Under the pieces are notes generated by a model that saw only the letters and a program-made list of their open reading frames with translations, made no database searches and was not told the DNA's origin. From NCBI GenBank assembly GCA_937124965.1, contig CAKZLB010000043.1:1-64000 (forward strand): DNA of 64,000 nt, given 5' to 3'. Shown here in pieces: positions 60,410-64,000 of this stretch. The position numbers were made by a program, and so were the translations under genes. Origin of the DNA: an uncultured Bacteroidota bacterium. Lineage in GTDB: Bacteria; Bacteroidota; Bacteroidia; NS11-12g; UBA9320. Within the stretch, counting starts at the first letter, position 1; every line of letters starts with the position of its first letter.

Positions 60410-61273
60410 ATGAAAAAACTACTTTTAGTTTTAACTACTTCACTACTTCTTATTCTTACAAACTGCAACGAACAACTTCCAGAAGTAAAAGAGAATATAT
60501 ATTCTGCTGAAGAGAATGCTCAGGCAGAGACACATTTCTTTGCAACGTTTGATGCTGCATATGACATAATCGCAACAGATAAAAAGTTTCAAAAATCAGA
60601 AACAACCATTATCCCAAGCAACACCACAATTATATTTTTAGATTCTACCTTCGATGACGGAGATGGTGTTGATGTTATAGTTGATTTTGGAAGTCAAGGA
60701 GAATCAGAACCCAAAGGTACTCTTTGTCAAGATGGTAGATATCGCGCTGGAAAAATGCGAATTCAAGTAAACCAATCTATACGGTCTGCAGAATTTCGAG
60801 CCACGGTGGTCAGTACTGAGGAAGATTCGTTCTACAGTGGCAACGGTGTTGATATGGTTCAATTGGTCGGTAAAACTGCTATCAGTCTTGCTGGTTCAAA
60901 TGGCATCAAAGTAGTTGTTTCTGACGCTACAATAAAGTCCAAAAACATAGAATACACGTGGAACAGCGATCGGGTAATCCTTCAATTAACGAACAATGGC
61001 AATGGTATCTGGGGAGACGAGTATGAGGTTACAGGTAAATCAACTGGAACCAATCGGGAGGGAAAGTCATTCAATGTCGAAATAATCGAGCCATTGGTTA
61101 AAAAAATGGAGCTTGATTGTGCAACGACTTTTGTTTCTGGTTCTGTAAAAGTTACTTCATCAGAAAGTTCTCAAGAAATATCAATTGATTATGATCCATA
61201 TCAAAACCAAGCATGTGATCAATATGCTGAAGCAAATTTAAATGGTAGAAAAACCATTTTTAAGATCAAATAG
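60410..61273 (+). CDS. lipoprotein of unknown function
   Basis: 287 residues. Lipobox I-L-T-N-C (Cys19) after a Leu-rich signal peptide, so membrane-anchored. The mature protein contains acidic N-terminal sequence, a Gly-Asp-rich segment (F-D-D-G-D-G-V-D), four further Cys (among them L-C-Q-D-G and D-C-A-T), and a beta-rich region (about 100-270). No enzymatic motif is recognisable. It is convergent with SixA, 10 bases away. Family not recognised. Confidence 0.75.
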   Translation: MKKLLLVLTTSLLLILTNCNEQLPEVKENIYSAEENAQAETHFFATFDAAYDIIATDKKFQKSETTIIPSNTTIIFLDSTFDDGDGVDVIVDFGSQGESEPKGTLCQDGRYRAGKMRIQVNQSIRSAEFRATVVSTEEDSFYSGNGVDMVQLVGKTAISLAGSNGIKVVVSDATIKSKNIEYTWNSDRVILQLTNNGNGIWGDEYEVTGKSTGTNREGKSFNVEIIEPLVKKMELDCATTFVSGSVKVTSSESSQEISIDYDPYQNQACDQYAEANLNGRKTIFKIK

Positions 61274-61283
61274 AATGTAGTAA

Positions 61284-61772
61284 TTATCTGAGTTTCTTAG
61301 GATATTCTAAAAAGTTTAACTCTCCATCTACACTTTCGATGTCGCTCCAATATGCGATATCAAACGTTAGCTGGGCAAACCCACATGTTGGCAAATTATC
61401 GAGTCTAACTTGACTCAAACGATTGATCAGTTCGGTAAGTCCGGGATTGTGACCCACAATCATTATATGCTTTTTATACTTATCAATTTCTTTTAAAAAA
61501 TTAATTATGTCCATTGCGTCAAATGAATAAAGCAAATCGCTTTCTTGGCGTTGTGCATCAATCTTCATCACGTCCAATAGTCCGTTTGCAGTGTCTGTCG
61601 CTCGTTTTGCTGTACTATAAAAACAAATCTCTGGAGTACAATTTAACTCTTTTAGTCTTGCTGCAACTTTGGGTACATCTGACTTCCCACGTTCATTTAG
61701 TGGTCTATCGTGATCTGGTAAGTCAAACGTCCAATCTGATTTTGCATGTCGGACAATCGTAAGCGTTTTCAT
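61284..61772 (-). CDS. sixA: SixA-type histidine phosphatase
   Basis: 162-residue histidine phosphatase of the phosphoglycerate mutase-like (branch 1) superfamily. The catalytic R-H-A-K-S-D-W (8-14) is at the N-terminus, with F-Y-S-T-A-K-R-A-T-D-T-A and G-H-N-P-G-L-T-E motifs later. The SixA family dephosphorylates histidine phosphotransfer proteins in some bacteria; the target here is unknown. Starts ATG 61772. Confidence 0.85.
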   Translation of the reverse strand: MKTLTIVRHAKSDWTFDLPDHDRPLNERGKSDVPKVAARLKELNCTPEICFYSTAKRATDTANGLLDVMKIDAQRQESDLLYSFDAMDIINFLKEIDKYKKHIMIVGHNPGLTELINRLSQVRLDNLPTCGFAQLTFDIAYWSDIESVDGELNFLEYPKKLR

Positions 61773-61861: not shown

Positions 61862-62671
61862 CTAATGAATTTGTACATGAATATGATCATCGTGTCTCAC
61901 TGCATGACAGCCATGAAAGCGTATTTTGTCTGAGTTCAATTTTAGTCTACTTTTCAAATTTGGCTCGATAAATATTTTGGATACTTCCGAGGAAATCAGC
62001 AACTGCATTAATCGTTTTGTCTCTGATTCATCAAACGACAACCATGAATTAGTGGGAATACCAATATATTTAGTAACATCATAAAACCACGATCTTTCCT
62101 TACAAATGGTTGTCTGATTTACCTCGCCGCTAGTTGGTTCCACATAAACTCCATACCCAAAAAGTGACATTGTTTTATTCCTAGAAACAAGATCATTCTT
62201 TTTATAATATCGAAACGCCAGATCTAGTTTCTTTCCATCGTTATGACTTAAATGAGGTATCAATGGGAAACCATCAATAAACGGGAAGTTCGCATCTAAA
62301 TAATTTAATTTCAATCCTTTATTCTTCGATTGATTGTTATAATTAACAGCAACATCATTGATCAAATCACACAAATCAGTTGTAACATAATGACGATTAG
62401 CCGCAACCGTAAACCAGTTTTGTGGCTGAATAACCTTAGAAGATAAAACGGGCAGTGGTTTCCGATTATTGAGCAACGCTAAGGGTGGAATTAAAAATAT
62501 ACTAACCAACGCATAAACTGTAATAAAACTTGCTTGTCGCTTGAACCATTTATATTTTTTAAATCTAATGAACTTGATAGCCGTATATCGGTTTACCACA
62601 TATAACAGTCCCCCGAATTGGGTTATTATCGTCAATATAAGAAAAACGAAAAGGACTTTAATCGTTTTCAT
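61862..62671 (-). CDS. membrane-anchored LAS-type metallopeptidase-like protein
   Basis: 269 residues from the ATG at 62671. Two hydrophobic helices (about 2-25 and 46-66) anchor the protein. The soluble part has a metal-site pattern like LAS peptidases (MepA, VanY): S-H-N-D-G-K-K-L-D at His143/Asp150 (H-x6-D) and H-D-D-H-I-H-V at 260-266 (H-x-H), with an additional region near 175-185. LAS enzymes cleave peptidoglycan cross-links or D-amino-acid bonds. Activity is inferred. The start overlaps the CAP gene's stop by 14 bases, so these are translated together. Confidence 0.65.
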   Translation of the reverse strand: MKTIKVLFVFLILTIITQFGGLLYVVNRYTAIKFIRFKKYKWFKRQASFITVYALVSIFLIPPLALLNNRKPLPVLSSKVIQPQNWFTVAANRHYVTTDLCDLINDVAVNYNNQSKNKGLKLNYLDANFPFIDGFPLIPHLSHNDGKKLDLAFRYYKKNDLVSRNKTMSLFGYGVYVEPTSGEVNQTTICKERSWFYDVTKYIGIPTNSWLSFDESETKRLMQLLISSEVSKIFIEPNLKSRLKLNSDKIRFHGCHAVRHDDHIHVQIH

Positions 62672-63230
62672 TCTTATACGGAAAAGCAAAAACCTGAACA
62701 GCAAACAAACTTCGATGTCTCTCGCTATATTTCACTTTTATTCCAGTGAATACATAATCAGAATAAACAATATTCTCTTTATGGTGAGGACTATTCATCC
62801 AAGCATACGTCATGTAATCAGCTGCTTGCTCATACGTCGAAATCGAAACCGTGTCAATCTGCCCATTCTCCCCTTTGTAAAGTGCTGGGTCTCGAACACG
62901 TATGTACGCCGTATTTTCCCCTACTCCTTGCATTTTGCCACCGTAAAACTCTACTCTTTGTCGTGCCTTAGCTTTGTTTGCCGAAGGTTGTTTATGAGAT
63001 AACGTTCCTAATTTGGAAATATAGTTAACATGATCTTGTGCCGCTTTTTCAAGTGAATGATTTCTTTTTAATTCTGGAATGCCATTTTTTACACGTATTT
63101 CATTCATTCGTTGAAGAATAAGTGAAGCAACTTTTTCATTATCAATGGTATCGCCAAACTCTTCATTTGCATGATGCTTCACAGAGCACAAAACGAACAA
63201 TAGAAATATGGAAATAACTGGTTTTGTCAT
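62658..63230 (-). CDS. CAP-domain (SCP/PR-1-like) secreted protein
   Basis: 190 residues. A hydrophobic N-terminal segment with Cys15 (L-L-F-V-L-C-S) could be a signal peptide or lipoprotein signal. The CAP domain (about 35-185) shows L-E-K-A-A-Q-D-H, G-V-G-E-N-T-A-Y, W-M-N-S-P-H-H-K-E-N-I and the V-K-Y-S-x-R-x-x-S-L-F-A-V-Q-V-F strand. CAP proteins are extracellular and of diverse or unknown function. Starts 3 bases after the upstream gene stop and overlaps the LAS-like gene by 14 bases. Confidence 0.88.
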   Translation of the reverse strand: MTKPVISIFLLFVLCSVKHHANEEFGDTIDNEKVASLILQRMNEIRVKNGIPELKRNHSLEKAAQDHVNYISKLGTLSHKQPSANKAKARQRVEFYGGKMQGVGENTAYIRVRDPALYKGENGQIDTVSISTYEQAADYMTYAWMNSPHHKENIVYSDYVFTGIKVKYSERHRSLFAVQVFAFPYKNEND

Positions 63231-63233
63231 GTA

Positions 63234-64000
63234 TTACTGAATTTCAACAATTCTTATAGAGTCTTGTTTTTCAAATTTTAGGTTAAGCCATGAATTCATT
63301 TTTTCTCGCTGATCTTGTTTATTAGTGCCTCGCAGTTTTTTATCCCAATCCACAAGAACTACCAACGATATTGAATGTAAACTGTCATCTAATGGTTTTA
63401 CAGCATAATCAAAAGAATTCAAATCTGGAAATAAAACGTTTGCTTCAACGGCAATATTATCAAGTGCCTCACAACTTTGGGTAACGTGTTTTATTTTAGA
63501 TTCTAGTTGCGTATTAATCTCATGTTTTCGAAAAATTTCTAATCGCATATTATCTGTCAGCACCTGTTTCTCACCAATTATTTCATCTTTTTGTTGAGTG
63601 ATGCTTTTAAACGCATCAAACGTACCCATGTTATGAATTTCTAATTGTGTATTTTGTAACCGATAGTTATTCATTAAAAGTGTTAATGAATCCTTTTCTG
63701 ATGGTGAATACTCATCTCCGTAAACAAATAGTTTTATTTTATTAATTGAGTCTCCATAATTTAAGACTGGATTAATTACAACATGGTTATCTGTATTTAT
63801 TCGCTCATTAATAAAACTCCTTGCCTCAGTCTTAAAAATTGACTCTTTCATTGCTGAGATATAGATAAACACACTTGGCACAGCAACGAGAATCACAAAA
63901 ATGGTAATTCCTGTTTTAGTTCGAAAAAGAACTTTAGGATTGACATAACTAGCAATCGGAAAACGCAAGTATCTCACCACCAAAAGGGCTGAAAGACTTA
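63234..64000 (-). CDS. C-terminal part of a DUF389-like membrane protein (cut by window end)
   Basis: The reading frame runs open to the window edge at 64000, so the gene is incomplete at its 5' end. The visible 255 residues begin S-L-S-A-L-L-V-V-R-Y-L-R-F-P, then one membrane helix (about residues 32-50), then a long soluble tail. The R-Y-L-R-F-P and V-P-S-V-F-I-Y sequences resemble the region after the hydrophobic bundle in DUF389 proteins, a family of unknown function. Family assignment is tentative. It heads the DUF389-CAP-LAS operon. Confidence 0.6.
   Translation of the reverse strand, partial: SLSALLVVRYLRFPIASYVNPKVLFRTKTGITIFVILVAVPSVFIYISAMKESIFKTEARSFINERINTDNHVVINPVLNYGDSINKIKLFVYGDEYSPSEKDSLTLLMNNYRLQNTQLEIHNMGTFDAFKSITQQKDEIIGEKQVLTDNMRLEIFRKHEINTQLESKIKHVTQSCEALDNIAVEANVLFPDLNSFDYAVKPLDDSLHSISLVVLVDWDKKLRGTNKQDQREKMNSWLNLKFEKQDSIRIVEIQ

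Follow-up and report, generated by a model that had tools for sequence, protein, structure and literature searches.

Among the described systems closest to the protein analysed here are two peptidases of the LAS type. MepA carries H-x(3-6)-D and H-x-H motifs, according to the passage cited (PMC3927764). TagX of Acinetobacter is described, in the sections cited, as an inner-membrane peptidoglycan peptidase, an L,D-endopeptidase that cuts between L-Ala and D-Glu. It has two predicted membrane helices, the first of them followed by a positively charged segment, and its LAS domain, assigned to pfam13539, is periplasmic; its shorter form alone was active, and the authors suggest an autoinhibitory N-terminus (PMC5061870).

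The 269-aa protein of the present locus has traits of each. It shares with TagX the layout of two helices, a positive loop and a LAS domain, but the LAS domain of TagX is of the M15 type, and TagX belongs to a T6SS, whereas no T6SS cluster appears among the neighbour clusters and the Pfam families listed for the family studied here. The comparison draws on the published description of TagX. MepA (M74) is the top fold match (Z 14.0), with the same H-x2-H-x6-D and H-x2-H-x-H spacing. However, the two proteins are ~20% identical in the structural alignment, and the protein scores under the M74 cut-off; it has two N-terminal membrane helices, whereas E. coli MepA, by our reading, starts with a signal-like stretch, and its family has other conserved blocks (N-R-x-Y-V and A-N-F-P-F). 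With a probability of roughly 0.65, we consider the protein to be a LAS-type zinc peptidase anchored in the inner membrane, from a divergent branch without a name and nearest to MepA, whose periplasmic domain would cut peptide bonds of the peptidoglycan stem or of its cross-links where the membrane tether lets it reach them.

The gene lies in the window, by which we mean the whole stretch of DNA that was analysed: bases 1-64000 (64,000 nucleotides) of a 106-kb contig (G000:C43) in a genome of 4.09 Mb. The relevant features are listed below.

61862-62671, minus strand: MepA-like LAS peptidase, predicted to be membrane-anchored, 269 aa, ATG start (ORF; AlphaFold pLDDT 94.2; MepA top fold match; M74 score below threshold)
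62474-62668, minus strand: predicted membrane hairpin, codons 2-66 (helices 2-17, 20-33, 41-66), with a positively charged loop (model; loop charge in 81 sequences)
62222-62254, minus strand: first metal-site segment, H140-x2-H143-x6-D150 (81/81 aligned sequences; spacing identical to H110/H113/D120 of MepA)
61877-61894, minus strand: second metal-site segment, H260-x2-H263-x-H265 (81/81 aligned sequences; spacing identical to H206/H209/H211 of MepA)
62658-62671, no strand given: CAP/peptidase frame overlap, 14 bases (from coordinates; 4 bases in the three congeners that have the gene)
62658-63230, minus strand: CAP-domain protein, 190 aa, hydrophobic N-terminus (PF00188; H79, E105 and H150 invariant in 15 related CAP proteins)
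63234-64000, minus strand: DUF389 membrane protein, C-terminal part (PF04087 on the full 471 aa; the gene reaches contig position 64649)
61284-61772, minus strand: SixA-like histidine phosphatase, a neighbour 89 bases downstream of the peptidase (PF00300; same position in L014-L016)

Read past the window edge, the minus strand carries, in reading order, ruvB, queG, DUF389 (471 aa), CAP (190 aa) and the 269-aa peptidase-like protein. By the listed starts, the overlap is 4 bases at ruvB/queG and 1 base at queG/DUF389; the ORF coordinates give a 3-base gap between DUF389 and CAP and a 14-base overlap between CAP and the peptidase. RuvB (506 bits) and QueG (358.9 bits) both scored above their NCBIfam cut-offs. 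The CAP ORF passes Pfam PF00188 (56.8 bits, cut-off 21.1), and the full-length DUF389 gene passes PF04087 (149.4 bits, cut-off 23.9), with TIGR00271 and TIGR00341 matches below their cut-offs; the window's fragment of this gene alone matched no relevant family in Pfam and NCBIfam-type profile scans. The preliminary description had reported three minus-strand genes separated by a 3-base gap and a 14-base overlap, the first DUF389-like and the second encoding a CAP domain, with the upstream part cut off at the window end. Its coordinates are correct and both family assignments hold at the scores given above; extension past 64000 completed the DUF389 frame and added queG and ruvB. The predicted DUF389 model was poor (10 sequences; pLDDT 63.7, pTM 0.35), and no role is proposed for this protein. 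A promoter and terminator scan returned sites no more frequently than in shuffled sequences. Downstream, the SixA-like gene, whose position is kept within the genus, passes PF00300 (39 bits, cut-off 21.7) and reached 49 bits with the sixA model TIGR00249, under the cut-off of 74.5. Between priA and the SixA-like gene, a 287-aa lipoprotein-like gene on the plus strand (window 60410-61273) keeps its place in three congeners; it matched no Pfam family above cut-off.

The metal-site residues of the peptidase lie in two segments, H140-x2-H143-x6-D150 and H260-x2-H263-x-H265, in which H143/D150 and H263/H265 form the LAS metal-site motifs H-x(6)-D and H-x-H. MepA as encoded in the E. coli K-12 genome has H110-x2-H113-x6-D120 and H206-x2-H209-x-H211, equal in residues and spacing; we take H113, D120 and H211 of MepA to be zinc ligands. 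Because all six site residues are invariant in the 81 aligned sequences (80 relatives and the window protein), they are not a product of chance. They belong to 34 invariant positions, which also include C190 and C255. The family has conserved blocks of its own, N-R-x-Y-V and A-N-F-P-F (extending to A-N-F-P-F-x-D-G-F-P-L), and in the M74 profile alignment a shared K-x-F-x-x-P-like stretch precedes the second motif.

Against Pfam M74 (PF03411), the window protein scored 17.3 bits, under the cut-off of 25, and against NF006947, the equivalog model for penicillin-insensitive murein endopeptidase, it scored 16.4 bits, far under the cut-off of 272. PF03411 was matched by 27 of 67 members at E<=0.01 and NF006947 by 14 of 67 at E<=0.001; one of 20 relatives scanned singly passes the PF03411 cut-off (28.1 bits). 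No member (0/67) matched PF13539 (Peptidase_M15_4) at E<=0.01, and the window's own genome has no PF13539 match. Profile-profile comparison gave 95.4% (E 2e-8) against a five-member M74 alignment and a weak 21.3% (E 0.001) against MepA alone. Searches of PDB sequences, by phmmer with the window protein and with the 67-sequence profile, returned nothing meaningful; the profile search found no MepA. The protein is nearest to M74 but is not filed as an M74 member, and the Pfam and NCBIfam models scanned include none for its family.

AlphaFold prediction with 67 sequences yielded a model with a pLDDT of 94.2 and a pTM of 0.89. Five MepA chains headed the Foldseek results (E 1.0e-7 to 5.5e-6), and the following match had an E value of 0.02. 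In VIA-align, MepA structures again ranked first (1tzp, Z 14.0, rmsd 3.3, 165 aligned; 1u10, Z 13.8). Hedgehog N-terminal domains (Z 8.8 and less), LdcB (7.1) and the VanXY-type peptidase VanXYg (6.5) share the LAS core, but their fold match is far weaker; 1lbu reached 5.9. The predicted model thus has a LAS fold (MepA Z 14.0). Judged from motif and model, the protein probably works like a LAS peptidase.

The N-terminal helices of the model (2-17, 20-33 and 41-66) were read as a kinked membrane helix and a straight one. Their connecting loop holds on average 5.43 K/R and 0.35 D/E (81 sequences); compared with the segment that follows helix 2, it has the higher net charge in 78 of the 81 sequences and an equal one in two. 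Both the model and the charge counts therefore place two membrane helices and a positive loop ahead of the LAS domain, as in TagX. By the positive-inside rule, the loop would be cytoplasmic and the enzyme domain periplasmic. The two cysteines invariant in 81/81 sequences, C190 and C255, could form a disulfide, which would likewise fit a periplasmic domain. In the preliminary description, H-x6-D and H-x-H motifs like those of MepA had been noticed on a two-helix membrane anchor. The motifs proved to be part of the larger six-residue motif, the anchor is supported by the modelled hairpin and by a loop that is more positive than the segment after helix 2 in 78/81 sequences, and the predicted structure, compared with MepA, has a MepA-like LAS fold with MepA closest; model and alignment contain neither a loss of this fold nor a break in the metal-site motif.

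Positions G20, G21, Y53 and P62 are invariant in the alignment, and L13, T14, T17, Q18 and F49 nearly so. On average the two helices are much less conserved (0.55 and 0.51) than the site segments (0.81 and 0.78). We regard it as unlikely, though conceivable, that the hairpin does more than anchor the protein passively and is itself a functional element. The kinked T-x2-T-Q-x-G-G segment, Y53, P62, N-R-x-Y-V and A-N-F-P-F-x-D-G-F-P-L would then bring a substrate linked to the membrane (a lipid-linked precursor or nascent peptidoglycan), or else a partner in the membrane, to the MepA-type zinc site, and the proteins would form a separate peptidase family editing the wall at the membrane face. 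As a plain membrane-anchored LAS peptidase, the protein would be tethered to the inner membrane by the hairpin, and its periplasmic catalytic domain would cut peptidoglycan peptides within reach of the membrane. For zinc binding, peptidase activity, the peptidoglycan substrate and the bond cut, we infer from MepA and other active LAS enzymes.

The same genome holds a second MepA-like (M74), lipoprotein-like gene (L124:1339-2115; G000:C46:141434-142036), unlinked to the first on contig C46. It has the H-x2-H-x6-D and H-x2-H-x-H pattern of the window protein but passes PF03411 (33.5 bits, cut-off 25), and its sequence shows no visible membrane hairpin. Related genes occur in 4 of 57 other genomes searched. 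Since this gene is over the Pfam cut-off, the 269-aa protein is not the genome's sole MepA-like one.

To chart the family, species genomes were scanned with six aligned relatives, which gave 423 stretches with a pattern, 316 of them confirmed; the best 80 of these were retained. Labels among these best 80 of 316 are nearly all Bacteroidota and include Flavobacteriaceae, Saprospiraceae, Chitinophagaceae, Mucilaginibacter, Cytophagaceae and Marinilabiliaceae. Of 395 genomes drawn evenly from the phylum, eight have a match (E<=1e-10), including the window's own and one whose match is partial and contains a stop codon. Occurrence in the phylum is patchy, and the protein is therefore not a core wall enzyme. 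Within the order, a search at E<=0.001 found 12 genomes, of which 8/97 stand once four doubtful rows are removed, two of them partial at contig ends (G093, G033). The match dropped from G018 was a frame with stops, and those dropped from G013, G087 and G003 were long PurF-like frames, which we take to encode amidophosphoribosyltransferase (PurF).

In a tree, the four genus sequences group together (100/100). With group labels drawn from record titles, Flavobacteriaceae require 9 changes, Saprospiraceae 4 and Cytophagales 5, a pattern consistent with transfer of the gene or with its repeated loss. Copies from two bins labelled Limnohabitans and Campylobacterota (L043, L044) fall among Bacteroidota rows, and these contigs are possibly mis-binned. 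Three plasmids of Alphaproteobacteria (Rhodobacter, Rhodovulum and Agrobacterium) carry relatives, annotated 'hypothetical protein', that have the full motif and are 33-34% identical across 96-100% of the length. On Rhodobacter capsulatus plasmid pRCB133 (L136:3336-4708), the relative and an 'RNA ligase family protein' gene share 4 bases. Two scans of viral contigs, a search of a phage collection and a PHROGs comparison with 67 members found no viral or phage relative.

Neighbours of the relatives were clustered (568 genes at 80 loci, 25 of which have <8 neighbours), with the ORFs picked by a simple script. No partner is common beyond small groups, and the largest clusters, from 9 and 6 of the 80 loci, are common-looking families. 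A Pfam tally covered 55 close neighbours on the same strand that were complete, free of N, no longer than 700 aa and separated by a gap of at most 80. Among the 25 of 58 families listed, no wall gene recurs besides the three CAP genes of the window's genus; neither these families nor the neighbour clusters contain secretion-system genes as a shared partner. Singly, the L017 relative adjoins an L,D-transpeptidase gene and the L138 relative an SLT lytic transglycosylase.

The link to CAP is close within the genus, where the peptidase gene ends the ruvB-queG-DUF389-CAP unit. It lies directly behind CAP in four of the five genus genomes (the window's, G001, G002 and G004). In the three other than the window's, the CAP/peptidase overlap is 4 bases and the peptidases are 58-62% identical to that of the window. 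Because an overlap has been kept while the peptidases are 58-77% identical among themselves, CAP and peptidase are probably expressed together in this genus. In the fifth genome, G003 (84% complete), DUF389-CAP is present and the peptidase was not found.

Across the 80 loci, of which 25 have <8 neighbours, CAP lies within four genes of the peptidase in three, all of the window's genus. CAP matches occur in 19 of 97 genomes of the order. Four of these have the peptidase directly behind CAP; of the other 15, the CAP loci of 13 were fetched (all but G081 and G032), with RuvB 77-84% and QueG 54-74% identical to the window's. CAP follows DUF389 in eight (L109, L110, L111, L113, L114, L117, L118 and L119; the L111 match is partial and weak, and the L119 DUF389 is in two pieces), directly follows queG in four (L112, L115, L116 and L120) and follows neither in one (L121). 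None of the 13 has a peptidase beside CAP. From these 13 loci and the 3/80 peptidase loci with CAP, the older order is ruvB-queG-(DUF389)-CAP; in the window's genus the peptidase most likely joined it later, behind CAP. The tight packing is a feature of one genus and not of a general CAP-peptidase module. The ruvB-queG-DUF389-CAP order itself is seen at L002:2659-6601 (window 62658-64000 and beyond) and at L110, L113, L114, L117, L118 and L119, with DUF1573 and degQ-like genes opposite in several; CAP thereby keeps its place among genes of DNA repair and tRNA modification. In the open-licence literature, no paper was found that contains both 'DUF389' and 'CAP domain'.

The preliminary description had further suggested a unit for cell-wall remodelling, made up of CAP and the peptidase translated together behind an unknown membrane protein. 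The adjacency and overlap on which it drew stand, being kept in 4/5 genus genomes while the peptidases diverged (58-77%), but the pairing is not general: CAP is near the peptidase at 3/80 loci, all of one genus, and stands without one beside it in 13/13 fetched loci of the order. Against it count also G033 and G035, in which a peptidase relative and CAP lie on separate contigs, and the 84% complete G003, in which no peptidase was found. We consider such a unit rather improbable. For the membrane-anchored LAS peptidase, the computed support consists of the predicted fold, the full MepA-type motif, which is invariant in the family, and the positive loop between the helices, and the TagX precedent and the neighbours of single relatives (L017, L138) also count for it; against it stand the scores under the M74 and NF006947 cut-offs, the weak profile match to MepA alone, the PDB profile search that found no MepA, the lack of a general peptidoglycan-gene context at the loci, the patchy occurrence and the other M74 gene in the same genome.

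An identical hairpin layout makes a TagX-like role worth weighing, that of a two-helix LAS enzyme opening the wall locally for an envelope machine; the bond would then be L-Ala-D-Glu, the one TagX cuts in the sections cited (PMC5061870), and not that of MepA. However, no member matches PF13539 at E<=0.01 (0/67), the predicted fold matches MepA far better than the M15-type chains listed (Z 14.0 versus 7.1 and less), and secretion-system genes are not a shared partner in the neighbour clusters or the 25/58 families listed, so that we hold this role to be quite improbable. The domain may also bind metal without being a wall enzyme, either in a binding or signalling role such as has been argued for Hedgehog, or as a protease of periplasmic proteins. 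In fold, Hedgehog domains do rank second (Z up to 8.8), and the patchy occurrence is unlike that of a core wall enzyme. Yet the six MepA site residues are invariant in 81/81 sequences, which is unexpected after a loss of catalysis, and besides Hedgehog the proteins with such a centre are all enzymes, mostly peptidases, in the account cited (PMC4102407); we judge a domain of this kind quite improbable.

The predicted membrane-anchored LAS peptidases make up a sizeable family (316 confirmed stretches in one scan of species genomes) without a name, in which the MepA-type site is complete and attachment to the membrane is predicted; no paper on a membrane-anchored M74-like family was found in the open-licence literature. 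The family is easily tested, though the expected chemistry is ordinary, and an assay of one purified domain would give a function to the whole family. In six Aquimarina genomes (L052, L059, L092, L096, L098 and L099), the gene directly behind the peptidase relative encodes a carboxylesterase-like protein of 219 aa.
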